A stretch of DNA of 64,000 nt from NCBI RefSeq assembly GCF_027812955.1, contig NZ_JAPYZV010000001.1, positions 361,769 through 425,768 of the forward strand. Reading direction: 5' to 3'. A model generated the notes under the pieces. That model was not told the DNA's origin, did no database searches, and saw only the letters and a program-made list of their open reading frames with translations. Origin of the DNA: Pedococcus sp. 5OH_020. GTDB lineage: Bacteria > Actinomycetota > Actinomycetes > Actinomycetales > Dermatophilaceae. Below are positions 3,267 through 59,126 of the stretch, one piece after another (position 1 is the stretch's first letter; each line of letters opens with the position of its first letter). The position numbers and the translations under genes were made by a program.

Positions 3267-3314
3267 GTGCTGGACTCCCTGCTGGACTCCGTGCTGGACT
3301 CCGTGCTGGACCTC
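3267..3314. repeat. 12-bp tandem repeat, 4 copies, just after the aqpZ stop
   Basis: Four adjacent copies of GTGCTGGACTCC (3267-3278, 3279-3290, 3291-3302, 3303-3314) with few mismatches. The array ends 7 bases from the aqpZ stop codon (3322-3324) and lies upstream of the icd start. It is not part of either protein. Confidence 0.85.
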
Positions 3315-3321
3315 TGCGACC

Positions 3322-4119
3322 TCAGGTCCCTGAGGTGTGCCGGACGGCTTCTGGGTCGACGAGCCCGGTGATGTCCTCGGCGCGCCGGTCGATCCCGGTG
3401 ATGAGGTGGTAGGTGGCTCCCGCGATGGCGGCGCCGACGACCGGTGCGACCCAGAAGGCCCACAGCTGCCCCGGGGCGCCGTTGCCGTTGAAGAACGCCA
3501 CCGCCGTCGAGCGGGCGGGGTTGACGGAGGTGTTGCTGATGGGGATCGAGACGAGATGGATGAGGGTGAGACCCAGACCGATCGCGATCGGCGCGAAGCC
3601 GAGTGGGGCCCGGTCGTCCGTGGACCCGAGGATGATGTAGACGAAGAACGCCGTGAGGATGACCTCCGCGCACAGCACCGCCACGAGGGTGTAGCCCGCC
3701 GGCGAGTGCTCGCCGTAGCCGTTCGCGGCCAGGTGCCCGGTGGCGCTGAAGCCTGGGACCCCGGACGCGATCGCCCAGAGGGCGAGCCCCGCCAGCAGAC
3801 CGCCCACCACCTGTGCCACGACGTAGCCCGGGACGTCGCGCCACGGGAACCGCCTGGCTACGGCCACGCCGATCGTGACCGCAGGGTTGAAGTGAGCCCC
3901 CGAGACGTGACCGACGGCGTACGCCATCGTCATCACGGTGAGCCCGAAGGCGAGCGCTACCCCGAGGAACCCGATCCCCAGCTGGACGCTCTGCCCGGCC
4001 ACGACGTTGGGGGCCAGGAACTTGGCGGAGAACACGGCACTGCCGCAACCACCGAAGACGAGCCAGAACGTTCCCAGGGCCTCGGCGCCGAGTCTGGAGC
4101 CCAGTGCCGGTATGCGCAT
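3322..4119 (-). CDS. aqpZ: aquaporin Z-type water channel
   Basis: 265-residue MIP-family channel in the cytoplasmic membrane with six predicted membrane helices and two half-helices. Both NPA motifs are intact: HFNPAV (N78-A80) and SVNPARS (N200-A202). The selectivity-filter set F58, H188, T197, R203 matches AqpZ, so water rather than glycerol is the expected substrate. An AAGGGAGAAG ribosome site is placed before the ATG at 4119. It stands alone, divergent from the Tat-signal gene across a 333-bp region holding paired direct repeats, and is followed by a 12-bp tandem repeat array. Confidence 0.93.
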
Positions 4120-4452
4120 TGCTCTTCTCCCTTACTGATGGACCACAGGCCGCCACGGCCCCGGCGTCACTCTTCCGTACCCGCGCCGGACCACGGGTGA
4201 CGACACCCGCTCGCGGCTGGACGCACGCCGATAGTGGCCAGCAAGGTAAAGGGACGGTAAAGCCGCAGGTCATCAGGCAAACGGATGAGGTCGACGTACG
4301 AAAACAGGGCTGTTGCGCACCCTGAAATGCGCTCAATTGGGACATTCTCGCGACGGGTCTTTACCAAACGCTTACCAAACACCTCCCTGTCCTTTACGTT
4401 CATCGCACACAAGCAAACGGGCCCAGGGCCTGGAAACGCAGGGGAGCAGAGC
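4120..4452. other. divergent regulatory region, aqpZ / Tat-signal gene
   Basis: 333 bp without a gene, more AT-rich than its surroundings. It holds two GGTAAAG boxes at 4245 and 4256 (11 bp apart) and, in opposite orientation, two TTACCAAAC boxes at 4361 and 4372 (also 11 bp apart). Direct repeats one helical turn apart are the usual layout of OmpR-family response-regulator sites. The rightmost box overlaps the -35 of a candidate promoter. Confidence 0.55.
4372..4400 (+). promoter_or_regulatory. candidate promoter of the Tat-signal gene
   Basis: -35 TTACCA (4372-4377), 17-bp spacer, -10 TACGTT (4395-4400). Expected start near 4407 leaves a leader of about 46 nt with a GGGGAG ribosome site at 4441-4446. 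The -35 lies inside the second TTACCAAAC box, so a regulator bound there would touch RNA polymerase. Confidence 0.45.
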
Positions 4453-10305: not shown

Positions 10306-10406
10306 AGAGGTCGACGTCGGAGAGATCCACGTCGGGGAGATCCACGCCAGAGAGATCCACGTCGGAGAGACCCACGTCGGAGAGACCCACGTCAGAGGGA
10401 CCCACG

Positions 10407-10410
<4 letters not shown>
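10306..10410. repeat. 15-bp tandem repeat, 7 copies, between xth and galK
   Basis: Seven contiguous copies of a 15-bp unit, consensus AGAGATCCACGTCGG, from 10306 to 10410. The array begins 4 bases after the xth stop and contains the galK stop codon (10407-10409) in its last copy. In one minus-strand frame it reads as pentapeptides of the DVDLS/DVGLS type, but no credible gene spans it. Confidence 0.88.
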
Positions 10411-11566
<1,156 letters not shown>

Positions 11567-22675: not shown

Positions 22676-23818
22676 ATGGGGTCGCTCAAGCGCTGGTGGT
22701 CGCAGCTGCAGCAGACCTCGGTGTGGCGCGCCTGGAAGCGGTACGGCGACAGCCGCGGCAACCTCCTGGCAGGCGGGGTGGGCTACTTCGCGTTCTTCTC
22801 CGTCTTCCCCGCCGTGCTGCTCGCCTTCACGGTCTTCGGCGTCGTGCTCCGCAACCAGCCGGAGCTCCTGGACCGCGTCAAGGACTCGATCAACCAGATG
22901 CTCCCCGGGTTCGTCAAGACCCCGTCGAACCCCCGCGGCATCATCAACGTCAGCGCACCCACCAAGGCGGCGCTGTCGGTGAGCGGGGTCGTGGCAGTCG
23001 TCGGCCTCGTCCTGGCCGGCACGGGGTGGCTCTCCGCCCTGCGCGACGCGATCCGCCAGATCTTCGGGGTCAAGGGGGCTCCGGGCAACCCGGTCCTGGC
23101 GAAGCTGCGCGACCTCGGGGTGCTGGTCGTCCTGGGGGTCGCGATCGTGCTCTCGGCGGTCGTGGGCAGCGTGGCGGGGGCGGCGTCGCAATGGCTGGCG
23201 CGGCTTCTCGGGCTCGGCGGCCAGGGGTGGATCCTGACGCTGGTGGCGTTGGTGATCGGGGTCCTGCTCGACGCCTCCATCATCATGGTGATGCTGCGGC
23301 TGCTGACGGGTGTCGACGTGCCGCGGCGCGGGCTGCGGAACGCGGCGGTGTTCGGCGGACTGGGCCTCACCCTGCTGAAGAAGTTCGGGACGGTCCTGCT
23401 GAGCGGGACACTGCACAACGCGCTCTTCGCCTCCTTCGCGCTCGTGGTGGGACTCCTGGTCTGGCTGAACTTCATGTCCAGGGTGATCCTGGTCTCCGCC
23501 GCGTGGGCGGCGAACGACCTCGACACCGTGCGAGGAACCGGGCTCAGCGCCGGCCAGGAGCACAAGCTGCTCGAGGGCCCTGCTCCTCAGGCTCTGGACA
23601 GTCTGCGGACGCCCCTGGACACTGTGCGGACGCCCCTGGACACTGTGCGGACGCCTCCGCACACTGTGCGGACGCGCACGGATGCGGGGCTGCCGACCTT
23701 CGGCCAACGGGCAGCCGACCGAACCTCCGTGGCCGCCGGCGTCGTCCTGGGCGCGACCGCTGCCTTCGCCCTCGGCGGTCTCGCGCGTGGCGTCCGAGCG
23801 CTCACGCACCGGCGCTGA
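22676..23818 (+). CDS. YihY/BrkB-family membrane protein with a repeat near its C-terminus
   Basis: 380-residue inner-membrane protein of the YihY/BrkB family with about six helices: GGVGYFAFFSVFPAVLLAF near residue 36, then segments around 100-125, 140-160, 180-210, 220-240 and 255-280. Family function is unsettled; it has no RNase activity despite old names. The segment after the last core helix is unusual: four heptapeptide copies (LDSLRTP, LDTVRTP, LDTVRTP, PHTVRTR) from a 21-bp DNA repeat, then a further hydrophobic stretch near the end. The ATG at 22676 follows the phosphoesterase gene by two bases. Confidence 0.85.
   Translation: MGSLKRWWSQLQQTSVWRAWKRYGDSRGNLLAGGVGYFAFFSVFPAVLLAFTVFGVVLRNQPELLDRVKDSINQMLPGFVKTPSNPRGIINVSAPTKAALSVSGVVAVVGLVLAGTGWLSALRDAIRQIFGVKGAPGNPVLAKLRDLGVLVVLGVAIVLSAVVGSVAGAASQWLARLLGLGGQGWILTLVALVIGVLLDASIIMVMLRLLTGVDVPRRGLRNAAVFGGLGLTLLKKFGTVLLSGTLHNALFASFALVVGLLVWLNFMSRVILVSAAWAANDLDTVRGTGLSAGQEHKLLEGPAPQALDSLRTPLDTVRTPLDTVRTPPHTVRTRTDAGLPTFGQRAADRTSVAAGVVLGATAAFALGGLARGVRALTHRR
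23593..23676 (+). repeat. 21-bp tandem repeat, 4 copies, inside the YihY gene
   Basis: Four copies of CTGGACACTGTGCGGACGCCC (23593-23613, 23614-23634, 23635-23655, 23656-23676). Two copies differ by one base. The unit is a multiple of three, so copy-number change would keep the reading frame. It begins about 225 bp before the stop. Confidence 0.88.
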
Positions 23819-34922: not shown

Positions 34923-34934
34923 CCGCTACGGACA

Positions 34935-35057
34935 GCATCACCGAGCCAGCATCAGCGACCGTGCATCACGGAAGGGTCATCGGACGCAGCATCACGGACG
35001 GAGCATCACGGACAGAGCATCACGGACGGGGCATCACGGACGAGCATCGCCGACAGC
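34935..35057. repeat. 14-bp tandem repeat, about 9 copies, after the mutase stop
   Basis: Unit GCATCACGGACGGA recurs with starts at 34935, 34949, 34963, 34977, 34989, 35003, 35017, 35031 and 35044; intervals are 14, 14, 14, 12, 14, 14, 14 and 13. A worn copy (34921-34934) appears to reach back to the mutase stop codon. The 14-bp unit is not a multiple of three, so it is not coding. It ends 16 bases before the -10 of the paaX-type gene. Confidence 0.88.
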
Positions 35058-37308: not shown

Positions 37309-37363
37309 GCGCAGGACAGCGCCTCGTGCATACAACGCAGGCGCAGCACAGCGCCTCGTGCAT
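37309..37363 (+). repeat. duplicated 24-mer in the leader of the nucleoside-import operon
   Basis: GGCGCAGGACAGCGCCTCGTGCAT (in two parts GGCGCAGGACAG and CGCCTCGTGCAT, 37309-37332) recurs at 37340-37363 with one mismatch, 31 bases apart. Both copies lie in the predicted leader, between the transcription start and the TTG start codon. Confidence 0.75.
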
Positions 37364-37385
37364 CCCCAGAGAACAGGAGACAGCC

Positions 37386-38444: not shown

Positions 38445-38462
38445 TACGCCAAGGATCGGTCA

Positions 38463-38503
38463 CACGGCCCGGGCCGGCGCGGTAGCGTCAGACCCGGGCC
38501 GTG
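38463..38503 (+). terminator. strong hairpin after the nucleoside-binding gene
   Basis: Perfect 11-bp inverted repeat CACGGCCCGGG (38463-38473) and CCCGGGCCGTG (38493-38503) with a 19-base loop, starting 18 bases after the stop. No T-run follows, so it may act as a weak terminator or an RNA-protecting stem that lets the binding protein be made in excess over the transporter. Confidence 0.55.
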
Positions 38504-38562
38504 CGCTTGTCCTCCACGCCTTGCAGCGCCCCGTACGGTGGTTCTCCGACCGTGCGCCAACC

Positions 38563-38580
38563 GCCCGCAGTGCTGCGGGC
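38563..38580 (+). other. small hairpin before the nucleoside ATPase gene
   Basis: GCCCGCA / TGCGGGC arms (38563-38569 and 38574-38580) around GTGC, seven bases before the AGGAG site at 38588-38592. It could influence translation of the ATPase. Confidence 0.35.
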
Positions 38581-38630
38581 CAGGACCAGGAGAGTGAGCC
38601 ATCACCGCCTCCCCACCGCTGACGCAGACC

Positions 38631-41281: not shown

Positions 41282-42546
41282 GTGCCGCCGGACTCGAGGT
41301 CGGCACCCAGACGCTGACCGACCGGCCGACCCCGCGCCGACGCCTGGGACCGCGGGAGTGGGCCGTCATCGGCGTCGGCGGGCTGGCACTGGTGTCGGTG
41401 CTCCGGGTGGTCACGGGGGCGGACGACATCGCCTCTTCCGGAGCCCTTGCCGCGGCCATCGGGCTCGCCGTCCCGATCGGGCTCGCCGGTCTGGGCGGCC
41501 TGTGGTCCGAGCGCGCCGGCGTGGTCAACATCGGCCTCGAGGGAATGATGATCCTGGGCACCTGGGGCGCCGGGTTCTTCGGGTACCACCTCGGACCCTG
41601 GGCAGGCGTGCTGGGCGCGGTGCTCATGGGCGTCCTGGGCGGGCTGATCCACGCCATCGCCACGGTCACGTTCGGGGTCGACCACATCGTGTCCGGTGTC
41701 GCGCTCAACATCGTCGGCCTGGGCGTCGCGAAGTATCTCGCGGCCCGCTTCTTCACCGGCCTGCCCGGCGGCGGCCCCACGCAGTCCCCACCGATCAAGG
41801 GGCTGCCCGCCTTCACCCTGCCCGGGGTGTCGGACGGACTGGGCACCGTGGAGAAGAAGAACTGGTTCTTCGTCAGCGACGTGGCCGCGGTCCTGCGGGC
41901 GATGTGCACCAACATCTCGGTGCTGACGATCATCGCCGTACTGCTGTTCGTCGGCACGTGGTGGGTGCTCTGGCGCTCCGCCTTCGGTCTCCGGCTGCGC
42001 TCGGTCGGGGAGTCACCCGTTGCGGCCGAGACGCTGGGGGTCAACGTCCTGCGCTACAAGTTCCTCGCCGTGCTCATCTCCGGTGGGCTCGCTGGTCTGG
42101 GCGGCGGCTTCCTCGCCATCGTCGCCGCGAACATCTACCGCGACGGTCAGACCGGTGGCCGCGGCTACATCGGCCTCGCCGCCATGATCTTCGGCAACTG
42201 GCGCCCCGGCGGGCTGCTGACCGGTGCAGCCCTCTTCGGCTACACCGACGCGGTGCAGCTTCGGGGTGGCGCCACGGTGCACGCGTTCCTGCTGCTGTTC
42301 GCAGTGCTCCTCATCGCGGTGGGCGTCTGGCAGGTCGTGCGCAACCGCCGGCTCGTCCAGGGGGTGCTGGCCCTTGTGGTCGGCGGCCTCGTCGGATGGT
42401 GGTACCTCGCCGCGGACGCGGTACCTGCGGAGCTGACCGGCACCACGCCGTACGTGACCACCCTGCTCGTCCTCGCCTTCGCCTCCCAGCGGCTGCGGAT
42501 GCCCATGGCTGACGGGCAGATCTACCGCAAGGGCGAGGGGCACTAG
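41278..42546 (+). CDS. nucleoside ABC importer permease 2
   Basis: 422-residue permease, partner of the preceding one. VVNIGLEGMMILGTWGAGFFGY near residue 82 and GVDHIVSGVALNIVGLG near 132 are typical of the second permease in BMP-type importers. About ten helices, including two extra helices near the C-terminus (VQGVLALVVGGLVGWWY; TTLLVLAFASQRL). ATG at 41278 overlaps the previous stop. The stop is directly followed by the cytidine deaminase start, so import and salvage are one transcript. Confidence 0.92.
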   Translation: MSAAGLEVGTQTLTDRPTPRRRLGPREWAVIGVGGLALVSVLRVVTGADDIASSGALAAAIGLAVPIGLAGLGGLWSERAGVVNIGLEGMMILGTWGAGFFGYHLGPWAGVLGAVLMGVLGGLIHAIATVTFGVDHIVSGVALNIVGLGVAKYLAARFFTGLPGGGPTQSPPIKGLPAFTLPGVSDGLGTVEKKNWFFVSDVAAVLRAMCTNISVLTIIAVLLFVGTWWVLWRSAFGLRLRSVGESPVAAETLGVNVLRYKFLAVLISGGLAGLGGGFLAIVAANIYRDGQTGGRGYIGLAAMIFGNWRPGGLLTGAALFGYTDAVQLRGGATVHAFLLLFAVLLIAVGVWQVVRNRRLVQGVLALVVGGLVGWWYLAADAVPAELTGTTPYVTTLLVLAFASQRLRMPMADGQIYRKGEGH

Positions 42547-42987
42547 GTGGCGGTGTCACCCGACGCCGGTGGCAACAGCCCGACCGACGTCGACTGGGAC
42601 GCCCTGCGCGCCGCCGCGGTGGAGGTCATGCACCGCGCGTATGCGCCCTACTCCCGTTTCCCGGTGGGCGTCGCCGGGCTCGCGGACGACGGCCGCGTGG
42701 TCGTGGGCTGCAACGTCGAGAACGCGGCGTACGGCGTGGGGCTCTGCGCCGAGTGCGGGATGGTCTCGGAGCTGCACGCCACGGGCGGCGGGCACCTCGT
42801 CGCCGTGTCGTGTGTCGGGCTCGACGGGGCCCCGCTCATGCCTTGCGGTCGCTGTCGGCAGCTGCTCTGGGAGCACGGTGGCCCGCACTGCCTGCTGCTC
42901 ACGCCGGAGGGCGTCCAGCCGATGAGCCAGGTGCTGCCCCAGGCGTTCGGCCCCGACAACCTTTCGATCGCAGGAGGACCGGCATGA
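42547..42987 (+). CDS. cdd: cytidine deaminase
   Basis: 146-residue homotetramer-type cytidine deaminase converting (deoxy)cytidine to (deoxy)uridine. Zinc-site motifs are intact: NVENAAYGVGLCAECG with the CAE catalytic glutamate near residue 70 and PCGRCRQLLWE near 99. The GTG start directly abuts the permease stop; the first 14 residues are polar and may be dispensable. The stop overlaps the deoA start (ATGA). Confidence 0.95.
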   Translation: MAVSPDAGGNSPTDVDWDALRAAAVEVMHRAYAPYSRFPVGVAGLADDGRVVVGCNVENAAYGVGLCAECGMVSELHATGGGHLVAVSCVGLDGAPLMPCGRCRQLLWEHGGPHCLLLTPEGVQPMSQVLPQAFGPDNLSIAGGPA

Positions 42988-44273
42988 CCGAGTCGTACGA
43001 CGCCGTGGACGTGATCGTCACCAAGCGCGACAAGGGCGAGCTGTCGGACGGCCAGATCGACTGGGTCATCGACGCCTACACCCGCGGGGTCGTCGCCCAC
43101 GAGCAGATGTCCAGCCTCGCGATGGCGATCCTGCTCAACGGCATGACGCGCCGCGAGATCGCGCGCTGGACCAGCGCGATGATCGCCAGCGGAGAGCGGA
43201 TGGACTTCTCCGCACTGTCGCGGCCGACTGCCGACAAGCACTCCACCGGCGGGGTGGGTGACAAGATCACCCTGCCGCTGGCGCCCCTGGTCGCCGCCTG
43301 CGGGGTGGCCGTGCCGCAGCTGTCCGGCCGGGGTCTTGGCCACACCGGGGGGACGCTCGACAAGCTGGAGTCGGTGCCCGGCTGGCAGGCCTCCCTGACG
43401 AACGAGCAGATGCTCCGCCAGCTCGAGGACGTCGGCGCCGTGATCTGTGCCGCGGGCGAGGGGCTGGCGCCGGCGGACAAGAAGCTCTACGCGCTGCGCG
43501 ACGTGACCGGCACCGTCGAGGCCATCCCTCTCATCGCCTCCTCCATCATGAGCAAGAAGATCGCCGAGGGGACCGGCGCCCTGGTGCTCGACGTCAAGGT
43601 GGGCAGCGGCGCGTTCATGAAGACGGTCGAGGACGCGCGTGAGCTGGCCCGGACCATGGTGGACCTAGGCACGGACGCCGGGGTGAGGACGGTGGCCATG
43701 CTGACCAACATGCAGGTCCCTCTGGGACTGACGGCCGGCAACGCGCTCGAGGTGCGCGAGTCCGTGGAGGTCCTCGCCGGTGGCGGCCCCCAGGACGTCG
43801 TGGAGCTCACCGTGGCGCTTGCCCGCGAGATGCTGACCGCCGCGGGACGCGAGGACGCCGACCCTGCCGACGCCCTGGCGGACGGCCGCGCCATGGATGC
43901 CTGGCACCGCATGATCCGCGCTCAGGGCGGCGACCCGGAGGCCCCCCTGCCGGTGGCCAAGGAGGCCGAGGACGTGCTCGCCCCGGTGGACGGCGTGCTG
44001 ACCCAGCTCGACGCCCTCAAGGTCGGGGTCGCAGCGTGGCGTCTGGGCGCTGGCCGCGCTCGCAAGGAGGATCCGGTCCAGGCTGGCGCCGGCGTGGAGC
44101 TGCACGCCAAGCCCGGCGCCACCGTGCGCGCGGGCGAGAGGCTCCTGACGCTGCACACCGACACCCCAGAGCGGTTCTCCCGTGCCCTCGAGGCCTTGGA
44201 CGGGTCGTTCACCATCGCGCCCGACGGCAGCCGACCCGACCTCCTCCCGTTGGTCATCGAGAAGATCGCCTGA
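42984..44273 (+). CDS. deoA: thymidine (pyrimidine-nucleoside) phosphorylase
   Basis: 429-residue enzyme splitting thymidine or (deoxy)uridine with phosphate into base and (deoxy)ribose 1-phosphate. DKHSTGGVGDK near residue 80 binds phosphate; SGRGLGHTGGTLDKLE near 113 is the family signature; the C-terminal domain is complete. Overlaps cdd, which supplies its substrates. Its TGA stop is part of the first copy of a 21-bp repeat array. Confidence 0.95.
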   Translation: MTESYDAVDVIVTKRDKGELSDGQIDWVIDAYTRGVVAHEQMSSLAMAILLNGMTRREIARWTSAMIASGERMDFSALSRPTADKHSTGGVGDKITLPLAPLVAACGVAVPQLSGRGLGHTGGTLDKLESVPGWQASLTNEQMLRQLEDVGAVICAAGEGLAPADKKLYALRDVTGTVEAIPLIASSIMSKKIAEGTGALVLDVKVGSGAFMKTVEDARELARTMVDLGTDAGVRTVAMLTNMQVPLGLTAGNALEVRESVEVLAGGGPQDVVELTVALAREMLTAAGREDADPADALADGRAMDAWHRMIRAQGGDPEAPLPVAKEAEDVLAPVDGVLTQLDALKVGVAAWRLGAGRARKEDPVQAGAGVELHAKPGATVRAGERLLTLHTDTPERFSRALEALDGSFTIAPDGSRPDLLPLVIEKIA

Positions 44274-44357
44274 CGCGTCCCGCTCGCCGCGGAGGACGCG
44301 TCAGGCTCGTCGCGGGACGTGTCGGGCTCGTCGCGGCACGCCTCAGGCTCGTCACCT
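44272..44357. repeat. 21-bp tandem repeat, 4 copies, at the deoA stop
   Basis: Copies at 44272-44292, 44295-44315, 44316-44336 and 44337-44357; consensus GACGCGTCAGGCTCGTCGCGG, with two extra bases after copy 1. The first copy shares the last two bases of the deoA TGA; the last ends ten bases before the stop of the convergent secreted-protein gene. Confidence 0.85.
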
Positions 44358-44367
44358 GGGGTCAGTC

Positions 44368-44820
44368 TCAGCCCGGCACCTTGTTGATCGTGCAGACGAA
44401 GTACTTCACCACGCCGTTGTCCACCGCGGCGCCGGACGCCATCGCGGCCTGCACCTCGGCGGTGGCGTCGAGAACGCCGTTGCCGTCGAGGTCGCCCGCA
44501 GCCAGCGCCGCTGCGTAGCCCTGGGGGAAGGTGACGCTGTGGACCTGCCAGCGGCCCCCCGTGAAGCCGACGTCACCAGGGGCGGCGGTCGCGACACTGC
44601 GCTGGGCTCCGTTGAAGCTGTAGATCGTGTCCCACGCCTGGGCGGGCGCCCCGGTGCCGGACAGGTCCGTGGGGGTGGCGACGGTGCGGTAGAGCTCATG
44701 GTCGACGTAGATGGCGGGGCCGCTCACGCCGGCGGCGCCGGCTGTCGCGGCGGCGCCCAGGGACAGCATGGCGCCGGCGCCGAGAACGGCTGCGGTGCCG
44801 AGGACTCGCTTGTGGTTCAT
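44368..44820 (-). CDS. small secreted protein with a calcium-loop-like motif
   Basis: 150-residue protein of unknown function with a Sec signal peptide (basic start, hydrophobic core, TAGAAG cleavage near residue 30). The mature part has DLDGNGVLDATAE near residue 112, which fits the D-x-D-x-(D/N)-G calcium-loop pattern of EF-hand-like and dockerin-like proteins; only one such loop is visible. AGGAGAGG lies before the ATG, just downstream of a short hairpin (44840-44855). Convergent with deoA and separate from the nearby two-component genes. No family recognised. Confidence 0.75.
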   Translation of the reverse strand: MNHKRVLGTAAVLGAGAMLSLGAAATAGAAGVSGPAIYVDHELYRTVATPTDLSGTGAPAQAWDTIYSFNGAQRSVATAAPGDVGFTGGRWQVHSVTFPQGYAAALAAGDLDGNGVLDATAEVQAAMASGAAVDNGVVKYFVCTINKVPG

Positions 44821-44839
44821 GGGGTTTCACCTCTCCTGT

Positions 44840-44855
44840 CCGGCCGCTCGGCCGG
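44840..44855 (-). other. short hairpin in the leader of the secreted-protein gene
   Basis: CCGGCC/GGCCGG arms around four bases, directly upstream of the AGGAG site (44833-44837 on the minus strand). It may modulate translation or mark a processing site. Confidence 0.3.
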
Positions 44856-44969
44856 TATGCCGTCCAGTAGAGCGGCCCCCGGCGCCGCACTCCATCACGC
44901 GCCGCTTACCCGGTTCTTACGGCTTGGTGACTGCGCCGGCAGGCAGCCGGACGCCGCATGCGCCGGCCC

Positions 44970-44975
44970 TATCCT
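44970..44975 (+). promoter_or_regulatory. -10 box of a leaderless promoter (response regulator)
   Basis: TATCCT ends six bases before the GTG at 44982, which fixes the start of the response regulator. Confidence 0.5.
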
Positions 44976-44981
44976 GACCGG

Positions 44982-45704
44982 GTGGCTCGCGTCCTGGTGA
45001 TCGACGACGACACGACCGTGTCGCAGGTCGTCGTCGCGTACCTGGAGCGCGCCGGGATCGAGGCCGAGCAGGCTGGCGACGGCGCCAGCGGGCTGGCGGC
45101 CGCGCGGGCGAGGCCGCCTGACGCGGTGGTGCTCGACCTGATGCTCCCCGGCATCGACGGCTTGGAGGTATGCCGGCGCCTGCGCACCATGCAGTCCGCG
45201 GTGCCCGTGCTCATGCTCACGGCCCGGGGCGAGGAGGAGGACCGCATCCTGGGGCTGGAGGTCGGTGCCGACGACTACGTGACCAAGCCGTTCAGCCCGC
45301 GCGAGCTCGTGCTGCGCGTCCAGTCGGTGCTCAGGCGCGCGAGCCCCGCAGTTCCCGCCGCGCCCCCGCCCGACGTGGTCCGGGACGGTGACCTCGTCCT
45401 CGACCCGGTGGCGCACCGCGTACATCGCAACGGTGTGGAGCTGTCCCTCACCACGCGCGAGTTCGACCTGCTGCACTGGTTCCTCGCCCATCCGGGCCAG
45501 GCGCAGGACCGCGAGGGGCTCATGCGGGGAGTGTGGGGCTGGGAGTTCGGCGACCAGTCGACTGTCACCGTGCACGTGCGCCGGCTGAGGGAGAAGGTCG
45601 AGGCCGACCCCTCGCACCCTTCCCGGCTCGTCACCGTCTTCGGCGTCGGCTATCGCTGGGACCCCGTCACTGGCGAGCCGAGGGTCGGCGGACTGCCGAG
45701 ATGA
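44982..45704 (+). CDS. OmpR-family response regulator
   Basis: 240-residue two-component regulator. The receiver domain starts VARVLVIDDD (acidic pocket), has the phosphorylation Asp in VVLDLMLPG near residue 53 and the conserved Lys in YVTKPFSP near 103. The C-terminal winged-helix domain (TTREFDLLHWFLAHPGQ to GVGYRWDP) places it in the OmpR/PhoB class that binds direct repeats. Its stop overlaps the histidine kinase start (ATGA). The signal and targets are unknown. Confidence 0.95.
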   Translation: MARVLVIDDDTTVSQVVVAYLERAGIEAEQAGDGASGLAAARARPPDAVVLDLMLPGIDGLEVCRRLRTMQSAVPVLMLTARGEEEDRILGLEVGADDYVTKPFSPRELVLRVQSVLRRASPAVPAAPPPDVVRDGDLVLDPVAHRVHRNGVELSLTTREFDLLHWFLAHPGQAQDREGLMRGVWGWEFGDQSTVTVHVRRLREKVEADPSHPSRLVTVFGVGYRWDPVTGEPRVGGLPR

Positions 45705-46750
45705 GTGGGACCGAGCTGCAGGCTGTCGCGCTCTCCGCCGTGGTCGCCACGGTGATCGGCACAGTGGGGGCTCTGCTGGTCGTCGCGATCGCTCGACGCT
45801 CAGTGGCCGCCGCGGCGGCCGTCGCGCCGGTGGTCATCGTCGGGTCGGTGGCCGGCGGGGTCTATGCCAGCGCCCGCGCGATGTTCCTCGCCGAGCGCGA
45901 CTCCGCGACGGTCCTGCTGGTGCTGCTCGTCTCGCTGCCCATCGCGGTCGCCATCGGCTGGGTGATCGCCGTACGCATCCAGCGGCTGCACCGCGACGCC
46001 GCCATGGCGCTCGCCGCGCAGGAGCGGGACCGCGAGCTGGAGTCCGGCCGCCGCGAGCTGGTCGCGTGGGTGTCGCACGACCTGCGTACGCCGCTGGCCG
46101 GCATGCGAGCGCTCACCGAGGCTCTCCAGGACGGCGTCGCGCGCGATCCTCGCGACTACCTCGACCAGCTGCAGGGACAGGTCCTGCGGATGAGCAGCCT
46201 CGTCGACGACCTGCTGGCGCTGTCCAGGCTCCAGTCGCCGTCGCTGACCCTGCAGCGTGAGCCCGTGGTGGTCGCCGACCTCGTGTCGGACGCGCTGGCG
46301 TCCTGTCAGCCGCTCGCCGACGCGGGCGGGGTGCGGCTCACGGGCAGCGTCGACCACGACGTGTCGGCGGCTCTCGACGCCCGCGAGGTGTCGCGCGCAG
46401 TGGACAACCTCGTGGTCAACGCCATCCGTCACACCCCGCCTGGGGGTGCGGTACGGGTCGCCCTGGACCAGGACGGCCAGGACGCCGTGGTGAGCATCGA
46501 CGACGGCTGCGGGGGGATCCCGGCCGAAGCGCTGGACCGGGTGTTCGAGGCGGGCTGGCGCGGCACCCGGGCTCGCACGCCCGGCGACGGGAGCGCGGGC
46601 CTGGGGCTGTCGATCGTCCGAGGGGTCGCCGAGGCCCACGGCGGGTCCGCGCAGGTCCGCAACCTCGAGCACGGCTGCCGCTTCGAGCTTCGCCTGCCGC
46701 TGAGCCCCGGTGACCCGGCGCGCCGGGCGCTAGGGTGGCCCGGTGCCTGA
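45701..46750 (+). CDS. sensor histidine kinase
   Basis: 349-residue membrane sensor kinase with N-terminal helices at about 8-30, 37-57 and 65-88 and almost no external loop, so it probably senses within the membrane or through a partner. The H-box is VSHDLRTPLAGMRAL near residue 122; the N-box is DNLVVNAIRHTPPGG, with SIDDGCGGIP and GLGLSIVRGVAEAHGG completing the ATPase domain. Coupled to the response regulator by an ATGA overlap; its last eight bases overlap the cupin gene, whose promoter lies inside its coding sequence. Confidence 0.93.
   Translation: MSGTELQAVALSAVVATVIGTVGALLVVAIARRSVAAAAAVAPVVIVGSVAGGVYASARAMFLAERDSATVLLVLLVSLPIAVAIGWVIAVRIQRLHRDAAMALAAQERDRELESGRRELVAWVSHDLRTPLAGMRALTEALQDGVARDPRDYLDQLQGQVLRMSSLVDDLLALSRLQSPSLTLQREPVVVADLVSDALASCQPLADAGGVRLTGSVDHDVSAALDAREVSRAVDNLVVNAIRHTPPGGAVRVALDQDGQDAVVSIDDGCGGIPAEALDRVFEAGWRGTRARTPGDGSAGLGLSIVRGVAEAHGGSAQVRNLEHGCRFELRLPLSPGDPARRALGWPGA
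46731..46736 (+). promoter_or_regulatory. -10 box of a leaderless promoter (cupin gene)
   Basis: TAGGGT ends six bases before the GTG at 46743, inside the 3' end of the histidine kinase gene. It would give the cupin-adenosine deaminase pair its own transcript. Confidence 0.5.
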
Positions 46751-47120
46751 GCTCATCGCGACTCCCACGACCATCCCCGTCCCTGGCGGGAAGATCATCG
46801 ACGAGCACGTGGGGCGGGTGAACACCGGCACGGACGCGGTGTCGGTGGCCCACATGAAGGCTCCAGCTGACTGGACCGAGCCGTTCCAGGCGCCGGAGTT
46901 CGACGAGGTGACACTCGTCCTCGCCGGTGCTGTGCTGGTGGACCATGACGGGGGTCAGGTGCGCGTGGAGGCGGGCCAGAGCGTCATCACGAGGGCCGGT
47001 GAGCGGATCCGCTACTCGACCGGCCACGAGGGCGCCGAGTACGTCGCAGTCTGCCTCCCCGCGTTCTCGCCCGAGGCCGTCAACCGCGACGTCGACGAGC
47101 CCGGCGAGGGGGAGGCGTGA
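46743..47120 (+). CDS. small cupin-domain protein
   Basis: 125-residue single-domain cupin. The beta-barrel pattern is visible as [19 protein letters not shown], followed by [19 protein letters not shown]. The usual metal-binding histidines of cupin motif 1 (HxH) are replaced (APEFDE), so it may bind little or no metal. The function is unknown; its stop overlaps the adenosine deaminase start (GTGA), which suggests a link to purine or small-molecule metabolism. Confidence 0.8.
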
Positions 47121-48289
47121 TCTTCGGCCGCAAGGGCGACCGCCAGGAGCCCCTCGAGCAGCCGCAGTCCTCCGACGAGCGCATCAGGCGGGCTCCGAAG
47201 GCGCTGCTGCACGACCACCTCGACGGCGGCGTGCGGCCGCAGACCATCGTCGAGATCGCGGACGAGGTCGGGTATGCCGGACTGCCCGCCTCCGACGCGC
47301 AGAGCCTCGGCGCCTGGTTCCGCGAGAGTGCGGACTCCGGCTCGCTCGTCCGGTACCTGGAGACCTTCGACCACACGCTGGCCGTCATGCAGAGCGCCGA
47401 CGGGTTGCGGCGGGTGGCCCGCGAGTGCGTCCTGGACCTTGCCGCCGACGGCGTCGTCTACGCGGAGAGCCGCTACGCACCCGAGCAGCACCTCGAGGCC
47501 GGCCTGGCGCTGGAGGAGGTCGTCGAGGCCGTCAACGACGGCTTCCGCGAGGGCGAGAAGGAGGCGGCGGGCGCCGGCACCCCCATCCGCGTCACGGCCC
47601 TGCTCACCGCGATGCGGCATGCCGCCAAGAGCACCGAGATCGCGGAGCTCGCGGTGCGCTACCGGGACCAGGGCGTCGCGGGGTTCGACATCGCCGGCGC
47701 GGAGGCAGGCTTCCCGCCCACCCGTCACCTCGACGCCTTCGAGTACCTGCGCCGCGAGAACGCGCACTTCACCATCCACGCCGGCGAGGCGTTCGGCCTA
47801 CCCAGCATCTGGGAGGCGATCCAGTGGTGTGGCGCCGACAGGCTCGGACACGGCGTGCGGATCGTCGACGACCTGACGGTCGACGACAAGGCGTTCGCGG
47901 ACGACGTCGCTGCCGCCGTCAGCGCCGAGGCGGCCGACGTGCACCTGGGCAGGCTCGCCGCCTACGTGCGGGACATGCGGATCCCTCTGGAGATGTGCCC
48001 CAGCAGCAACGTCCAGACGGGTGCCGCCCTGTCCGTCGCCCTGCACCCCATCTCGCTGCTCAAGCGGCTGCGCTTCCGGGTCACCGTCAACACGGACAAC
48101 CGCCTCATGAGCGGCACGACCATGTCCCGCGAGATGGAGCTGCTCGTGCAGGACGCAGGCTGGACGATCGAGGACCTGCGGTGGGTCACCATCAACGCGA
48201 TGAAGTCGGCGTTCATCCCGTTCGACGAACGCCTCGCCATCATCGAGACCGTGGTGAAGCCCGGGTACGCCGTCCTGCTGGACGAGTAG
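47117..48289 (+). CDS. add: adenosine deaminase
   Basis: 390-residue adenosine deaminase converting (deoxy)adenosine to (deoxy)inosine. Zinc and catalytic motifs: LLHDHLDGG near residue 31, HAGEAFG near 221, and [12 protein letters not shown] near 330, where Asn follows the metal-binding Asp as in many actinobacterial enzymes. The N-terminal 25 residues are a polar extension. GTG start overlapping the cupin stop. Its inosine product suits the purine nucleoside phosphorylase at 61888. Confidence 0.93.
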
Positions 48290-48337
48290 GCCGGGGTGGC
48301 GGCGACCGCTTCGACCTACGCCGGAGCACAAGGTGGC

Positions 48338-49180
48338 TCAGGAGCCGGGGGAGCGGGGTTCGGCGGCGTCCGCCGTTTCCGGAGGCAGCAGCCGGCTCCG
48401 CAGAGCGGCCTCGCGTTCGAGCCGGCCCAGGTCCCGCGTCCGGCGCTCGGCCAGCATCGCCCTGAGGATGTTCTCCGGGTGGTTCCCGTGGGGCGGTGAC
48501 GGTGCCACATACGGCAGGGCGTCCTCCAGCAGCCGTTGGCCGAGCTGCTCCCGTACCGCCGGCGTGAAGGTGCCGGCCCGAGCCAGGAACTGGCGTACGG
48601 CAGCTGCGAGCTGGTCGGGCAGGGGAGCCAGGTCGGCGGCACTGGCCCAGCCGGCGAGATGGGGTGGCATCTCGGTCGGTGGAGGGAGCCGGATCTTCTG
48701 GCGGTCCCGGACCACGTACGTCCCGGCGAGCAGGTCGCCGAACCGCTTGCCCCGGCTGTTGAACGCGGCGCACACGAGGGCCGGCACCCCCCAGCACCCG
48801 TACAGCTCCACCACGCCGAGCATCGCCCGGGTCAGAGCCTGCCGGAACGCGATCGGTCCGGCGTCGTCGCGCACCGTCCTCAGGCCCAGGGCGAGGTGAC
48901 CCAGCGTCTTGCCCCGGGTGAGCGTCTCGCAGGTGGTGGGGATGGCGACCATCGCCGCGATCCCCGCCACCGTGAGCATCGCCGACACCAGCGCGTCGTC
49001 CGCGCCGGCGACGAGCAGGCCGAGGCCGAGCTGGAGCCCGAAGAGCGCGGCATAGCCGAGCAGGATGTCGATCAGCCCGGACACCATCCGCAGACCGAGC
49101 GCCGCATGCGGCAGGTCGAGAGCCACCGCCTCGCCGGTCACCAGGTCGTCGGCACCGACCCCCACGGTGCTACTGCTCAT
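48338..49180 (-). CDS. RDD-family membrane protein
   Basis: 280-residue protein whose N-terminal half is an RDD domain with three to four helices (ALGLRMVSGLIDILLGYAALFG near residue 28 holds the R and D residues; TRGKTLGHLALGLRTV is typical). The C-terminal half is a soluble, charged tail. RDD proteins may carry ions or act as scaffolds; the function is unknown. Divergent from a SpoIIM-type gene across 41 bp and part of the conserved MoxR/DUF58 locus. The ATG lies seven bases after a TAGGGT box. Confidence 0.85.
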   Translation of the reverse strand: MSSSTVGVGADDLVTGEAVALDLPHAALGLRMVSGLIDILLGYAALFGLQLGLGLLVAGADDALVSAMLTVAGIAAMVAIPTTCETLTRGKTLGHLALGLRTVRDDAGPIAFRQALTRAMLGVVELYGCWGVPALVCAAFNSRGKRFGDLLAGTYVVRDRQKIRLPPPTEMPPHLAGWASAADLAPLPDQLAAAVRQFLARAGTFTPAVREQLGQRLLEDALPYVAPSPPHGNHPENILRAMLAERRTRDLGRLEREAALRSRLLPPETADAAEPRSPGS

Positions 49181-49187
49181 GACGGCA

Positions 49188-49193
49188 ACCCTA
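49188..49193 (-). promoter_or_regulatory. -10 box of a leaderless promoter (RDD gene)
   Basis: TAGGGT on the minus strand, seven bases before the ATG at 49180. Paired with an identical divergent box at 49209. Confidence 0.5.
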
Positions 49194-49208
49194 ACGGGGC
49201 TGCCCGGC

Positions 49209-49214
49209 TAGGGT
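49209..49214 (+). promoter_or_regulatory. -10 box of a leaderless promoter (SpoIIM-type gene)
   Basis: TAGGGT ends seven bases before the GTG at 49222; a GTG at 49213 overlaps the box itself and is therefore rejected as the start. Confidence 0.5.
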
Positions 49215-49221
49215 GGCCGAT

Positions 49222-50217
49222 GTGGACCTGGACGCCTTTGTGGCTGCCCACCGGGGGGACTGGGAGAGGCTCGAGGAGCTGACCGGCCGCCGGCGGCTGT
49301 CGGGTGCCGAGGCCGACGAGATCCTGGACCGGTACCAGCGCGTGGCGACCCACCTCTCGATGATCCGCTCGACCGCCCCGGATGCCTCGCTCGTCGGCTA
49401 CCTGTCGATGCTCCTGGCCCGGGCCCGCTCTCGCTCCGCCGGCACCCGCACCGCCGCCTGGTCCGACCTGGGCCGGTTCTTCGCGGTCTCCTTCCCGGCG
49501 GGCCTGTACCGGCTGAGGTGGTGGTGGCTGACCGTCCTGGTGGTCGACCTGCTGCTCGTCGTGGTCGTCGGCTGGTGGCTGCTCGACCACCCCTCGGTGG
49601 AGACCTCGCTCGCCTCGCCCGAGCAGATCCGGGACCTCGTCGGCAACGACTTCGAGCACTACTACAGCCAGTACGCTGCGACCTCCTTCGCGCTGCACGT
49701 CTGGACGAACAACTTCTGGCTGTCGGCTCTGTGCGTCGCCCTCGGGGTGTTCTGCCTTCCGGTGGTCCTGATGCTCTTCGGCAACATGCTCAACCTCGCG
49801 GTGGTCGGGTCGATCATGGTTCGCCACGGCCGCGGGGGACTGTTCTTCGGGCTGATCCTGCCCCACGGGCTGCTCGAGCTGACCTGCCTCTTCGTCGCTG
49901 CGGGCGTGGGCCTGCGGCTGTTCTGGTCGTGGGTGTCGCCCGGTCCCCGCAGTCGGGCGCGGGCCCTGGGGGAGGAGGGTCGAGCGGCCCTCGGGACGGC
50001 GCTCGGACTGGTCGCCCTGCTCCTGGTCTGCGGGTTGATCGAGGCCTTCGTGACTCCCTCGGCGCTGCCTACGTGGGCGCGGGTCGGCATCGGGCTGTGC
50101 GCCGAGTCCGCCTTCTTCGCGTACGTCTTCACCCTCGGACGATGGGCGCACCACCGAGGGCTGACCGGCGACCTGGAGGAGGGTGATCGCGGCTTCGAGC
50201 TACCCGTGGCGGGGTGA
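49222..50217 (+). CDS. stage II sporulation protein M-like membrane protein
   Basis: 331-residue membrane protein of the SpoIIM/DUF95 family. The first 95 residues are soluble (DLDAFVAAHRGDWERLEEL), then about six helices; LHVWTNNFWLSALCVALGVF, HGRGGLFFGLILPHGLLEL and the NML motif are typical. There is no sign that this organism sporulates; such proteins are widespread in actinobacteria next to RDD, DUF58 and MoxR genes. GTG at 49222 chosen from the promoter position. Confidence 0.85.
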   Translation: MDLDAFVAAHRGDWERLEELTGRRRLSGAEADEILDRYQRVATHLSMIRSTAPDASLVGYLSMLLARARSRSAGTRTAAWSDLGRFFAVSFPAGLYRLRWWWLTVLVVDLLLVVVVGWWLLDHPSVETSLASPEQIRDLVGNDFEHYYSQYAATSFALHVWTNNFWLSALCVALGVFCLPVVLMLFGNMLNLAVVGSIMVRHGRGGLFFGLILPHGLLELTCLFVAAGVGLRLFWSWVSPGPRSRARALGEEGRAALGTALGLVALLLVCGLIEAFVTPSALPTWARVGIGLCAESAFFAYVFTLGRWAHHRGLTGDLEEGDRGFELPVAG

Positions 50218-56626: not shown

Positions 56627-57562
56627 TCAGCGGCCCTTGGGGTGCCAGACCGTCTTGGTCTCGAGGAAGGACGTGACCCGCGAGAGGTCCGGCGTCCGTG
56701 ACCAGTCCGGCTCCACGGCGTCAGAACCGGCCCCGGCCGGACGCACGACCCTCTTGAGGTTCTCCGCCGCGGCGAGCTCGAGGTCACCCCAGCTCACGCC
56801 GTCGGCCGCCGCAGCGCCTGCCAGGTCGATCGCGTTGACGTCGCGGTGCGAGGCGATCCAGGGCGCGACCTCCGCGGTCCTGCCTGTGATGAGGTTGACC
56901 ACCCCGCCGGGCACGTCGGAGGTGGCGAGCGCCTCGGACAGCGTGATGGCGGGAAGCGGGCGCTGCTCGCTGGTCAGCACCACGACCGTGTTGCCGGAGA
57001 CGACCACGGGGGCCACCACGGACACCAGGCCCAGGAGCGATGACCCTTGCGGCGCAAGGACCCCGACGACACCGGTCGGCTCCGGCGCCGAGATGTCGAA
57101 GTACGGTCCGGCGACCGGGTTGAGGCCACCGAGGACCTGGGCGAGCTTGTCCGCCCAGCCGGCGTACCAGACCCAGCGGTCGATCGCCTGCGAGACCACG
57201 GCCTCCGCGCGACGTTCGGCCAGACCCTCGCTGGCCCGGACCTCCGCGACGAACTGGGCTCGCCGGCCCTCCATCACCTCCGCGACGCGGTACAGCACCT
57301 GGCCGCGGTTGTACGCCGTCGATCCGGCCCACCCCGCAAAGGCGGCCCGTGCGGCGACGACCGCGTCACGGGCGTCCTTGCGCGACCCCTGCGCCGCGTT
57401 GGCGAGGAACCGGCCCCGGTGGTCGACGACCTCGTACGACCTGCCGGACTCCGATCGGGGGAACTTCCCGCCGATGTACAGCTTGTAGGTCTTGCGGACG
57501 TCGACCCGGGTGTCAGCCGCACCCGGGCCGCGGGTGGTGCCTGCGGACACGGTGGCGCTCAC
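56627..57562 (-). CDS. truncated aldehyde dehydrogenase-like protein without catalytic domain
   Basis: 311-residue protein related to aldehyde dehydrogenases but far shorter than the usual 480. The N-terminal coenzyme-binding region is recognisable (YKLYIGGKFPRSESGRSYEV; GVVGVLAPQGSSLLGLVSVV; LPAITLSEALATSDVPGGVV). Where active enzymes have the FTGST glycine loop it reads AIDLAGA, and the catalytic Glu and Cys region is absent; the chain ends soon after with KRVVRPAGAG. The GTG start overlaps the stop of the full-length enzyme (GTGA), so they are probably made in equal amount. A non-catalytic partner subunit is inferred. Confidence 0.8.
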   Translation of the reverse strand: MSATVSAGTTRGPGAADTRVDVRKTYKLYIGGKFPRSESGRSYEVVDHRGRFLANAAQGSRKDARDAVVAARAAFAGWAGSTAYNRGQVLYRVAEVMEGRRAQFVAEVRASEGLAERRAEAVVSQAIDRWVWYAGWADKLAQVLGGLNPVAGPYFDISAPEPTGVVGVLAPQGSSLLGLVSVVAPVVVSGNTVVVLTSEQRPLPAITLSEALATSDVPGGVVNLITGRTAEVAPWIASHRDVNAIDLAGAAAADGVSWGDLELAAAENLKRVVRPAGAGSDAVEPDWSRTPDLSRVTSFLETKTVWHPKGR

Positions 57563-59007
57563 TTGGCGTCTCCCGTAGCGACGTAGGCGTAGAGGCCGTG
57601 ACGACCGCCTTCGCGCCCGTAGCCGGACTCCTTGTAGCCGCCGAAGGGGCTCGTCGGGTCGAACTTGTTGAAGGTGTTGGCCCACACCACGCCCGCGCGG
57701 AGCTGGTCGGCCATCCAGAGGATCCGCGACCCCTTCTCGGTCCAGATCCCGGCAGACAGGCCGTATGGCGTGTTGTTCGCCTTGGCCACAGCCTCGTGCG
57801 GGGTGCGGAACGTCAGGACGGACAGCACCGGCCCGAAGATCTCCTCCTGGGCGATGCGGTGGGTCTGGCTGACCCCGGTGAAGACGGTGGGCCGGAACCA
57901 GAAGCCCTTGGCAGGCAGCTCGCAGCCGTTGTCCCAGCGCTCGGCGCCCTCCGCCTCACCCGCCGCCGTCAGCTCGGTGATGCGCTGCAGCTGGGCCTGG
58001 GAGTTGATCGCCCCGACGTCGGTGTTCTTGTCGAGTGGGTCGCCGACGCGAAGCGTGCCGAGCCGGCGCTTGAGCCGCCGCTCGACCTCCTCGGCGATGG
58101 ACTCCTGGACGAGCAGACGGGAGCCCGCGCAGCAGACGTGGCCCTGGTTGAAGAAGATGCCGTTGACGATGCCCTCGACCGCCTGGTCCAGCGGCGCGTC
58201 GTCGAAGACGATGTTCGCCGCCTTCCCGCCCAGCTCCAGGGTCGCCTTCTTCCGCGTGCCCGCGATGGACCGCGCGATCATCTTGCCGACGCCCGTGGAC
58301 CCGGTGAAGGCGAGCTTGTCGATGTCGGGGTGGTCGACGATCGCCTGGCCCGTGGCGCCCGCACCGGTGACGATGTTGACGACCCCTGGCGGCAGGTCGG
58401 CCTGCTGCAGGACCTCCGCGAAGAGCAGGGCGGACAACGGCGTCGTCTCCGCAGGCTTGATCACGACGGTGTTACCGGTGGCGAGGGCGGGTGCGACCTT
58501 CCAGGCCAGCATGAGCAGCGGGAAGTTCCACGGGATGACCTGTCCCACGACTCCCAGCGGCCTGGGGTCGGTCCCCAGCCCGGCATACTCCAGCTTGTCG
58601 GCCCATCCCGCGTGGTAGAAGAAGTGCGCCGCCGCCAGCGGCACGTCGACGTCGCGGCTCTCCTTGATCGGCTTGCCGTTGTCGATGCTCTCCAGGACCG
58701 CGAACTCGCGCGAACGCTCCTGGAGCAGCCGGGCGATCCGGAACAGGTACTTCCCACGGTCGGTGCCCGACATCCGGCCCCAGACCCCCTGGTAGGCCCG
58801 CCGTGCGGCGGCGACAGCCCGGTCGACGTCGGCCTCGCTCGCCGCAGTCACCTCGGCGAGCACCTCCTCGGTCGCCGGGTTCACCGACTTGAAGGCAGAG
58901 CCACCCTGGGACTCGGTGAAGGCTCCGTCGATGAAGAGCCCGTACGAGGGTCTGATGTCGACGACGGAGCGGGACTCCGGTGCGGGTGCGTACTCGAAGG
59001 TGGCCAT
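57559..59007 (-). CDS. aldehyde dehydrogenase
   Basis: 482-residue NAD(P)-dependent aldehyde dehydrogenase. Conserved parts: PWNFPLLMLAWKVAPALATG near 148, FTGSTGVGK near 225, catalytic Glu in LELGGKAANIVF near 250, catalytic Cys in NQGHVCCAGSRL near 284, and IFGPVLSV near 383. A TGAGGA site precedes the ATG at 59007. It follows deoC, whose cleavage of deoxyribose 5-phosphate gives acetaldehyde, so oxidation of acetaldehyde is its likely job. Coupled to a truncated homologue downstream. Confidence 0.92.
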   Translation of the reverse strand: MATFEYAPAPESRSVVDIRPSYGLFIDGAFTESQGGSAFKSVNPATEEVLAEVTAASEADVDRAVAAARRAYQGVWGRMSGTDRGKYLFRIARLLQERSREFAVLESIDNGKPIKESRDVDVPLAAAHFFYHAGWADKLEYAGLGTDPRPLGVVGQVIPWNFPLLMLAWKVAPALATGNTVVIKPAETTPLSALLFAEVLQQADLPPGVVNIVTGAGATGQAIVDHPDIDKLAFTGSTGVGKMIARSIAGTRKKATLELGGKAANIVFDDAPLDQAVEGIVNGIFFNQGHVCCAGSRLLVQESIAEEVERRLKRRLGTLRVGDPLDKNTDVGAINSQAQLQRITELTAAGEAEGAERWDNGCELPAKGFWFRPTVFTGVSQTHRIAQEEIFGPVLSVLTFRTPHEAVAKANNTPYGLSAGIWTEKGSRILWMADQLRAGVVWANTFNKFDPTSPFGGYKESGYGREGGRHGLYAYVATGDAK

Positions 59008-59055
59008 GGGGTGGTTCCTCAGCGTGCGTAGGGGGCGAGGGTCAGCGCGTGGGGC

Positions 59056-59126
59056 GTGCTGGGGGGTCAGTGCTGGCGGTCGGTGCTGGGGGTCCGGTGC
59101 CGGGGGTCCGGTGCCGGCGGGGTCAG
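59056..59126. repeat. 13-14-bp tandem repeat, 5 copies, at the deoC stop
   Basis: Copies start at 59056, 59070, 59083, 59097 and 59111; consensus GTGCTGGGGGTCCG. The last copy contains the deoC stop codon (59123-59125). The unit is not a multiple of three. The array fills most of the deoC-aldehyde dehydrogenase gap. Confidence 0.82.

Follow-up and report, generated by a model that had tools for sequence, protein, structure and literature searches.

The tandem-repeat arrays that lie beside stop codons in the window, the 64,000-nucleotide stretch of the Pedococcus sp. 5OH_020 genome analyzed here, are most likely ordinary arrays rather than a novel gene-end signal. Arrays of this kind are genuinely biased to the 3′ flanks of genes. 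We consider it probable that they are minisatellites of the usual type, which arise by local tandem duplication, are tolerated in 3′ flanks and are removed elsewhere.

Five intergenic arrays with unrelated units

The earlier note had listed five intergenic arrays close to gene ends. TRF (threshold 50) recovers all five, with edges between −6 and +10 bases relative to six stop codons:

3265..3311, no strand assigned: 12-bp unit, 3.9 copies, in a co-directional spacer 3′ of the aquaporin (MIP) gene aqpZ
10306..10412, no strand assigned: 15-bp unit, 7.1 copies, taking up the convergent spacer that separates an exo/endonuclease-phosphatase gene (xth) from a galactokinase gene (galK)
34933..35054, no strand assigned: 14-bp unit, 8.9 copies, in the spacer that separates a methylmalonyl-CoA mutase-type gene from a PaaX-type regulator gene
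44272..44353, no strand assigned: 21-bp unit, 3.8 copies, in the convergent spacer 3′ of the pyrimidine nucleoside phosphorylase gene (deoA)
59056..59127, no strand assigned: 14-bp unit in 4.9 copies or 27-bp unit in 2.6 copies, in the spacer that follows deoC and precedes a co-directional aldehyde dehydrogenase gene

At 34933..35054, the top TRF score goes to a model of 54 bp in 2.2 copies. Measured from where the nearest stop codon ends, array edges fall at +10 (aqpZ), +4 (xth), −6 (galK), +10 (mutase), −2 (deoA) and −5 (deoC). The units are unrelated, as had been claimed, with no 9-mer common to those of any two arrays. Among window spacers of at least 60 bp, an array is present in 2/2 convergent, 3/10 co-directional and 0/6 divergent ones, and no RNA family was detected in the window at gathering score.

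Bacterial minisatellites, or VNTR, consist of head-to-tail units of about 10-60 bp, a range that includes the units of the window arrays. The two also agree in the lack of sequence common between loci and in gain and loss between species; nothing essential sets them apart in a comparison drawn across species only. A search of titles and abstract openings found no literature on a bias of actinobacterial minisatellites to gene 3′ flanks, which is weak evidence of absence.

Placement in 3′ flanks

A genome-scale tandem-repeat scan had been proposed as a check, and in 1.42 Mb of the same genome it reveals enrichment in 3′ flanks. Gene models were taken from a codon-score gene finder, which places 80% of bases in genes and leaves starts uncertain, and the spacers used were at most 600 bp long and flanked by genes of score at least 20. 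The stretches were hand-chosen, not random, and some are the first part of a contig, a region often less densely covered by genes. Eleven contigs shorter than 3 kb, read as N, were left out. Among spacers of at least 60 bp, arrays occur in 17/66 convergent, 31/230 co-directional and 12/140 divergent ones, and their densities per kb of spacer are 1.70, 0.92 and 0.38, respectively. Counted by gene end, arrays accompany 21/230 co-directional and 26/132 convergent 3′ ends (one convergent array may count at both ends), and, among 5′ ends, 5/230 and 6/280. Such numbers exceed chance: 57 arrays were found in the first spacer sample versus 1 in one mononucleotide shuffle of those spacers. The bias to 3′ flanks is thus real in this genome. 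Two smaller sets run against the preferred explanation, however, as 3′ and 5′ arrays in co-directional spacers number 4 versus 3 of 75 in the genus set and 6 versus 3 of 28 in genome G090, neither difference being significant, and 5′ coverage equals 3′ coverage at 50-80 nt in the genus set.

Anchoring at the stop codon itself, the central claim of the earlier note, has to be given up. The list of contacts looked striking, and a test confined to convergent spacers removed the effect: 26/45 arrays overlap a stop codon, versus 23.8 ± 2.7 expected under random placement (p 0.27). Beside 3′ ends, arrays cover 5.7% of bases at 0-15 nt, less than on the plateau of 8-12% at 15-200 nt, and 1.5% past 200 nt. 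Over all spacer types, 39 array edges lie near 3′ ends versus 29.1 ± 2.7 under uniform placement (57 arrays), an excess that counts against the preferred explanation and may reflect promoter constraint. Proximity to stop codons looks striking, but spacers are short; 3′ flanks are short in a compact genome, so an array in a 3′ flank usually finds itself near a stop codon.

A different origin of the bias would be genuine mutational hot spots in 3′ flanks, where the ending of transcription, R-loops or converging polymerases lead to breaks or slippage that duplicate local DNA. Consistent with this, convergent spacers have the highest array rates in the own-genome, genus and G090 samples. In the own genome, moreover, 3′ coverage exceeds 5′ coverage even at 80-200 nt from the gene (8-9% versus 3.4-3.6%), which argues against a neutral origin and implies either a long-reaching constraint near starts or more mutable 3′ flanks. 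Yet convergent spacers show no excess at the stop itself, the codon-usage score, a rough proxy for expression, does not differ between genes with and without a 3′ array (43 versus 319 genes, p 0.39), and arrays that mostly keep frame populate coding sequence as well, as described below. Hot spots of this sort therefore seem unlikely. The wider proposition, that 3′ flanks of high-GC actinomycetes, chiefly their convergent spacers, are duplication hot spots coupled to transcription ending and that successive duplications across stop codons lengthen the spacers, we regard as quite improbable.

Terminators, insulators and dispersed repeats

A role for the arrays as transcription terminators or insulators instead of hairpins, for instance as Rho loading sites, is very unlikely. 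Their position in 3′ flanks would suit such a role, and so would the scarcity of hairpins with a T run in the 20 kb scanned (30000-49999). That scarcity, remarked on earlier, holds with two such hairpins, but it is no sign of replacement by arrays, since 2.8 are expected in shuffles. Neither of the two arrays within the scanned 20 kb has a stable GC-rich hairpin with a T run behind it, and the window arrays would not classify as intrinsic terminators on this model. The best-hairpin energy does not differ significantly between spacers that have an array and those that lack one (p 0.69, 0.40, 0.50), and in seven foldings the five array spacers behave much as shuffles do (z −1.61 to +0.99); the deoC spacer, at −1.61, comes nearest to an exception, with 10/200 shuffles equally good. 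In the genus and G090 sets, hairpins are nominally stronger at arrays, not significantly so. With hairpins no weaker where arrays occur, the suggestion that arrays replace them is not supported. As for Rho, a utilization site would be rich in C and poor in G on the transcript, upstream of the point of termination. In the own genome, the transcript strand of co-directional arrays favors C over G (0.109 versus 0.038, p 0.12, not significant), but in the two other sets, with 4 and 6 arrays, the sign of the skew is opposite. The deoC array also lies in a short co-directional spacer ahead of the aldehyde dehydrogenase gene, and arrays at orthologous ends are no commoner than elsewhere in the genus. 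Both observations speak against termination and insulation alike, and the proposed insulation of neighboring genes is left without support.

Derivation of the arrays from a dispersed repeat that inserted at gene ends has next to no probability. MIRU are homologous copies dispersed between loci. They resemble the window arrays as tandem intergenic units of a high-GC actinobacterium that touch stop codons, but their units are homologous whereas those of the window are unrelated. REP/BIME are palindromic elements of enterobacteria that share the 3′-flank location, but the five arrays have no common unit. Judged by their sequences, the five arrays thus appear to lack both the homologous unit that MIRU repeat over many loci and the palindromic unit that REP/BIME have in common. 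In favor of a dispersed repeat, the genome does contain a separate palindromic family of 40 bp, partly in 3′ flanks; against it stand the missing 9-mer match among the window arrays and the position of 70/74 arrays outside the family. Among all 74 arrays, 28 pairs share a 9-mer, 6 of them within the palindromic family and 22 outside it that may include chance matches. A Y1 transposase (PF01797), as a mover of this family, was found in 0/11 genomes.

In Beggiatoaceae and cyanobacteria, direct repeats between genes reiterate one fixed heptamer, TAACTGA, at gene borders (PMC4679880). There, 13 sets overlap an upstream stop codon and 8/22 intergenic sets of a Microcystis sample lie between stop codons; those of a Beggiatoaceae genome are mostly directly upstream of start codons. 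Both kinds are tandem at gene borders, whereas the window arrays have many unrelated units and a 3′ bias. A survey of short tandem repeats across life reports weak enrichment up- and downstream of bacterial genes (PMC12699852). It also considers gene ends; the term "stop codon" is absent from its text, and the units described here are mostly longer.

Species turnover, reading frame and spacer length

Comparison with close relatives, again proposed earlier, reveals that arrays turn over between species. An array is present at 5/55 orthologous gene ends in congeners (one genome per species, one end per gene and genome), close to the genus baseline of 13/113, although the comparison is rough because the zones differ (220 bases past the stop in any spacer for the former, −20 to +60 in spacers of at least 60 bp for the baseline). 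The 5/55 include a galK array of G004 at +108 and leave out the own genome's galK paralogue and two further gene copies without an array of score 50, namely an additional mutase gene in G008 and an additional deoC in G006. By reading, none of the congener arrays has the window's unit and period, and deoC shares a seed; gain or loss between close relatives, as in VNTR, is thus indicated by the orthologous ends. In two cases, aqpZ of G008 and the mutase gene of G064, the array units are the gene's own last codons and stop, and the spacer between deoC and the aldehyde dehydrogenase gene is just tens of bases long in several congeners.

Array density varies by genome in a way that the preferred explanation does not account for, which counts against it. 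Convergent spacers of at least 20 bp carry arrays in 9/17 cases in G090, where density is high, and in 0/6 in G105, which has near none (2 arrays in 140 kb and no 3′ bias, in a small sample). G098, another small sample, has 6 arrays in 120 kb, or 0.57 per kb in co-directional, 2.87 in convergent and 0.87 in divergent spacers; divergent spacers are not the poorest there. Among loci grouped by record title (75/80 used), the same three densities are 0.63, 1.45 and 0.27 in 24 Intrasporangiaceae-like loci, 0.54, 1.15 and 0.29 in 42 Streptomyces loci, and 0.21, 0 and 0.29 in 9 Cellulomonas/Actinotalea/Nocardioides loci with merely 2 arrays; the groups are not independent because the loci are orthologous. 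An E. coli K-12 control gave 1 array in 200 kb, with a 98-bp unit 3′ of fadA, which we take to be a BIME, and says little because it holds just 2 convergent spacers of at least 60 bp.

The window holds a sixth strong array, absent from the original list of five:

23594..23675, plus strand: 21-bp unit, 3.9 copies (TRF), in frame inside a coding sequence whose protein matches Pfam BrkB

By subtraction of alignment coordinates in 10 congeners, six (G003, G004, G005, G006, G008, G010) are exactly 63 bases, or three units, shorter at this array, two are shorter by 51 and 48 bases, and two have no alignment past it. In the own-genome sample, the period is divisible by three in 122/135 coding arrays versus 29/74 spacer arrays. 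Coding arrays hold frame and spacer arrays do not; in part, those in coding sequence may be protein repeats retained for their own sake. Because an array of this kind also lies in frame within a coding sequence, 3′ ends are sites of tolerance and are not shown to be sites of origin. Of the earlier idea of a process amplifying sequence at 3′ ends, the amplification in 3′ flanks is real and recurrent.

When arrays are collapsed to one unit, median convergent spacers match array-free ones (53/55 bp in the own genome, 47/48 in the genus set, 86/76 in G090), so that additional units account for convergent spacer length. Against this, co-directional array spacers of the own genome stay longer once collapsed (129 versus 71 bp, p 0.0003), and convergent spacers with an array are not significantly longer in the genus set (p 0.46).

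If the arrays are ordinary minisatellites, a short tandem duplication would arise locally, perhaps by strand slippage or end repair, and would at times include a gene's last codons and stop codon. As the first copy would retain the original stop, the protein would remain unchanged, and more rounds would extend both array and spacer. Duplications would be purged from coding sequence unless frame is kept, and presumably also near promoters and ribosome-binding sites, and would persist in 3′ flanks, with selection as the probable cause of the bias.

The density difference between genomes (G090 versus G105) is measurable. Should 3′ flanks be hot spots after all, transcription ending would be linked to duplication mutagenesis. 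Should the neutral origin be true, the arrays would show how intergenic spacers grow in compact high-GC genomes, and would caution against inferring function from arrays next to stop codons.

Array abundance and gene orientation

All five arrays that an earlier note had placed beside gene stop codons were recovered by TRF in the window (G000:C11:361769-425768, from a genome of 4.43 Mb spread over 32 contigs), with edges lying -6 to +10 bases from six stops. The gene names were confirmed at family level: aquaporin (MIP), exo/endonuclease-phosphatase, galactokinase, methylmalonyl-CoA mutase, pyrimidine nucleoside phosphorylase and DeoC aldolase. The best deoA relatives among the matches listed come from Pedococcus and Knoellia, presumably of the family Intrasporangiaceae.

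Gene models came from our own gene finder, 1.02 Mb and then 1.42 Mb of the genome being sampled, and arrays were defined by a TRF score of 50 or more. Spacers in the first sample held 57 arrays versus 1 in one mononucleotide shuffle. The larger sample held 74, at 1.70 per kb in convergent spacers (24 arrays), 0.92 in co-directional (38) and 0.38 in divergent ones (12). Arrays occurred in 17/66 convergent, 31/230 co-directional and 12/140 divergent spacers of at least 60 bp (convergent versus divergent, p 0.002); the corresponding counts were 6/19, 5/75 and 2/38 in 19 stretches from congeners (the genus set; p 0.013) and 9/16, 7/28 and 1/17 in G090, a genome of the same class (p 0.002). The bias towards gene 3' ends that had been noticed is thus real, and extends beyond this genome. 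It is not universal among the genomes sampled, being absent from G105, which has 2 arrays in 140 kb, and in a small sample of G098 the pattern is mixed, divergent spacers not being the poorest in arrays. The 9.2 Mb G090 (stretches L241-L247) is far denser in arrays than our own genome, with arrays in 9/17 sampled convergent spacers of at least 20 bp.

Position relative to stop codons and tests of function

The bias does not amount to anchoring at stop codons, as had been proposed. Array coverage beside 3' ends in our genome is lowest within 200 nt at 0-15 nt (5.7%), reaching 10.3% at 15-30, 12.1% at 30-50, 10.0% at 50-80, 9.1% at 80-120 and 8.2% at 120-200 nt, with 1.5% beyond. Because convergent spacers have no start-codon side, they provide a fair test, and there 26/45 arrays overlapped the stop versus 23.8 expected under uniform placement (p 0.27; own 15/24, genus 8/9, G090 3/12). 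Anchoring is therefore rejected.

Beside 5' ends, coverage ran between 0.8 and 3.6% within 200 nt and fell to 0.2% farther out; in the smaller, noisier genus set, coverage at 50-80 nt was 4.0% on the 3' side and 4.4% on the 5' side. Across all spacer types in the first sample, 39 array edges fell between -30 and +20 relative to a 3' end versus 29.1 +/- 2.7 expected, and 11 near 5' ends versus 15.0. This overall 3' excess fits avoidance of the 5' side, and could also have a mutational component. Co-directional gene ends carried an array at 21/230 3' ends versus 5/230 5' ends in our genome (p 0.002), with no significant difference in the genus and G090 sets.

A terminator or insulator role for the arrays found no support. 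Replacement of hairpin terminators had been suggested, but best-hairpin energy near stops was no different with and without arrays in three sets (p 0.69, 0.40 and 0.50). Transcript-strand skew of C against G was not significant and changed sign between genomes; array spacers folded about as their shuffles did (best, the deoC spacer, z -1.61), and Rfam gave no match within the window at gathering score. As for the suggested insulation of neighbours, the deoC array precedes a co-directional aldehyde dehydrogenase gene, and the spacer is only tens of bases long in several array-free congeners; it is a poor location for a terminator or insulator.

Turnover and origin of the arrays

Arrays at the six gene ends turn over between species. 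Arrays scoring at least 50 were present at 5/55 congener ends (aquaporin 1/9, xth 0/6, galactokinase 1/10, at +108, mutase 1/10, deoA 0/10, deoC 2/10), the genus baseline being 13/113 3' ends (co-directional 4/75, convergent 9/38), and by reading none of the five had the window's unit and period. What is shared, on our reading, is a CCCCAGCA-like seed at the deoC end of our genome, G002 and G008, amplified with differing periods. At the mutase stop of 23 family members outside the genus-wide set (congener G010 included), an array started within 100 bases in two (L182, L195) and at +177 in a third (L189). The deoC 3' ends of G006 and G001 (L298, L299) have a second deoC-like tail about 44 bases past the stop, ending CCTCTACTGA, which looks as if the gene end had been duplicated. 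G008 has two copies of the methylmalonyl-CoA mutase-type gene; the second (L314, G008:C7) has a different 3' flank, and matches to both copies fall in two pieces.

Origins can be read in relatives, where the sequence suggests duplication of a gene's own tail: the G008 aquaporin gene has its last codons and stop in two copies (13 bp x 2.0, score 52), and the repeated unit of the G064 mutase gene consists of its last codons and TGA. Nineteen array edges in our own sample lie at least 6 bases inside a coding sequence, which means that those arrays take in the stop codon. Median convergent spacer lengths with and without arrays were 102 versus 55 bp (own, p 0.005), 88 versus 48 (genus, p 0.46) and 133 versus 76 (G090, p 0.04); collapsed to one unit, the array-bearing medians were 53, 47 and 86 bp. 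Own co-directional array spacers were still longer after collapse (129 versus 71 bp), so arrays there favour longer spacers.

A dispersed palindrome, CCGAAGTCNNGGACTTCGG, often spaced 40 bp, lies at these sites in the stretches sampled:
L035 2349-2506 (G000:C11:448117 on)
L047 16803-16902
L057 18058-18198
L204 18274 on
L049 19742-19842
L032 19571-19664
Of five such palindrome arrays in one array listing, three start 20-31 nt past a stop codon. Counting both strands, the pattern matches 52 times in G000, 16 in G007 and 21 in G010, and in none of the 8 other congeners; Y1 transposase (PF01797) was not found in the 11 genomes.

Coding arrays and the source of the bias

Arrays also lie within genes, periods divisible by three accounting for 122/135 coding versus 29/74 spacer arrays in our own sample. 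One is in the window:
23594-23675: coding tandem array, in frame, 21-bp unit, in a protein with a Pfam BrkB match, close to its C-terminus
The sequence between the flanking alignments is shorter by exactly 63 bases (three units) in six of the ten congeners and by 51 and 48 bases in two; the remaining two give no alignment past the array. The array was probably gained in our genome, not lost in the others. Tandem duplication thus also happens away from 3' ends, and the array distribution is probably shaped by selection, not placement.

The bias and its variation between actinomycete genomes were not described in the papers that literature searches listed, which is weak evidence of absence; a survey of shorter repeats reports weak enrichment beside bacterial genes (PMC12699852). 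A less likely reading makes 3' flanks mutational hot spots, since 5' flanks in our genome are array-poorer even 80-200 nt from starts; the arrays inside coding sequence favour tolerance instead. The arrays are ordinary minisatellites, and their real 3'-flank bias is best explained by tolerance.
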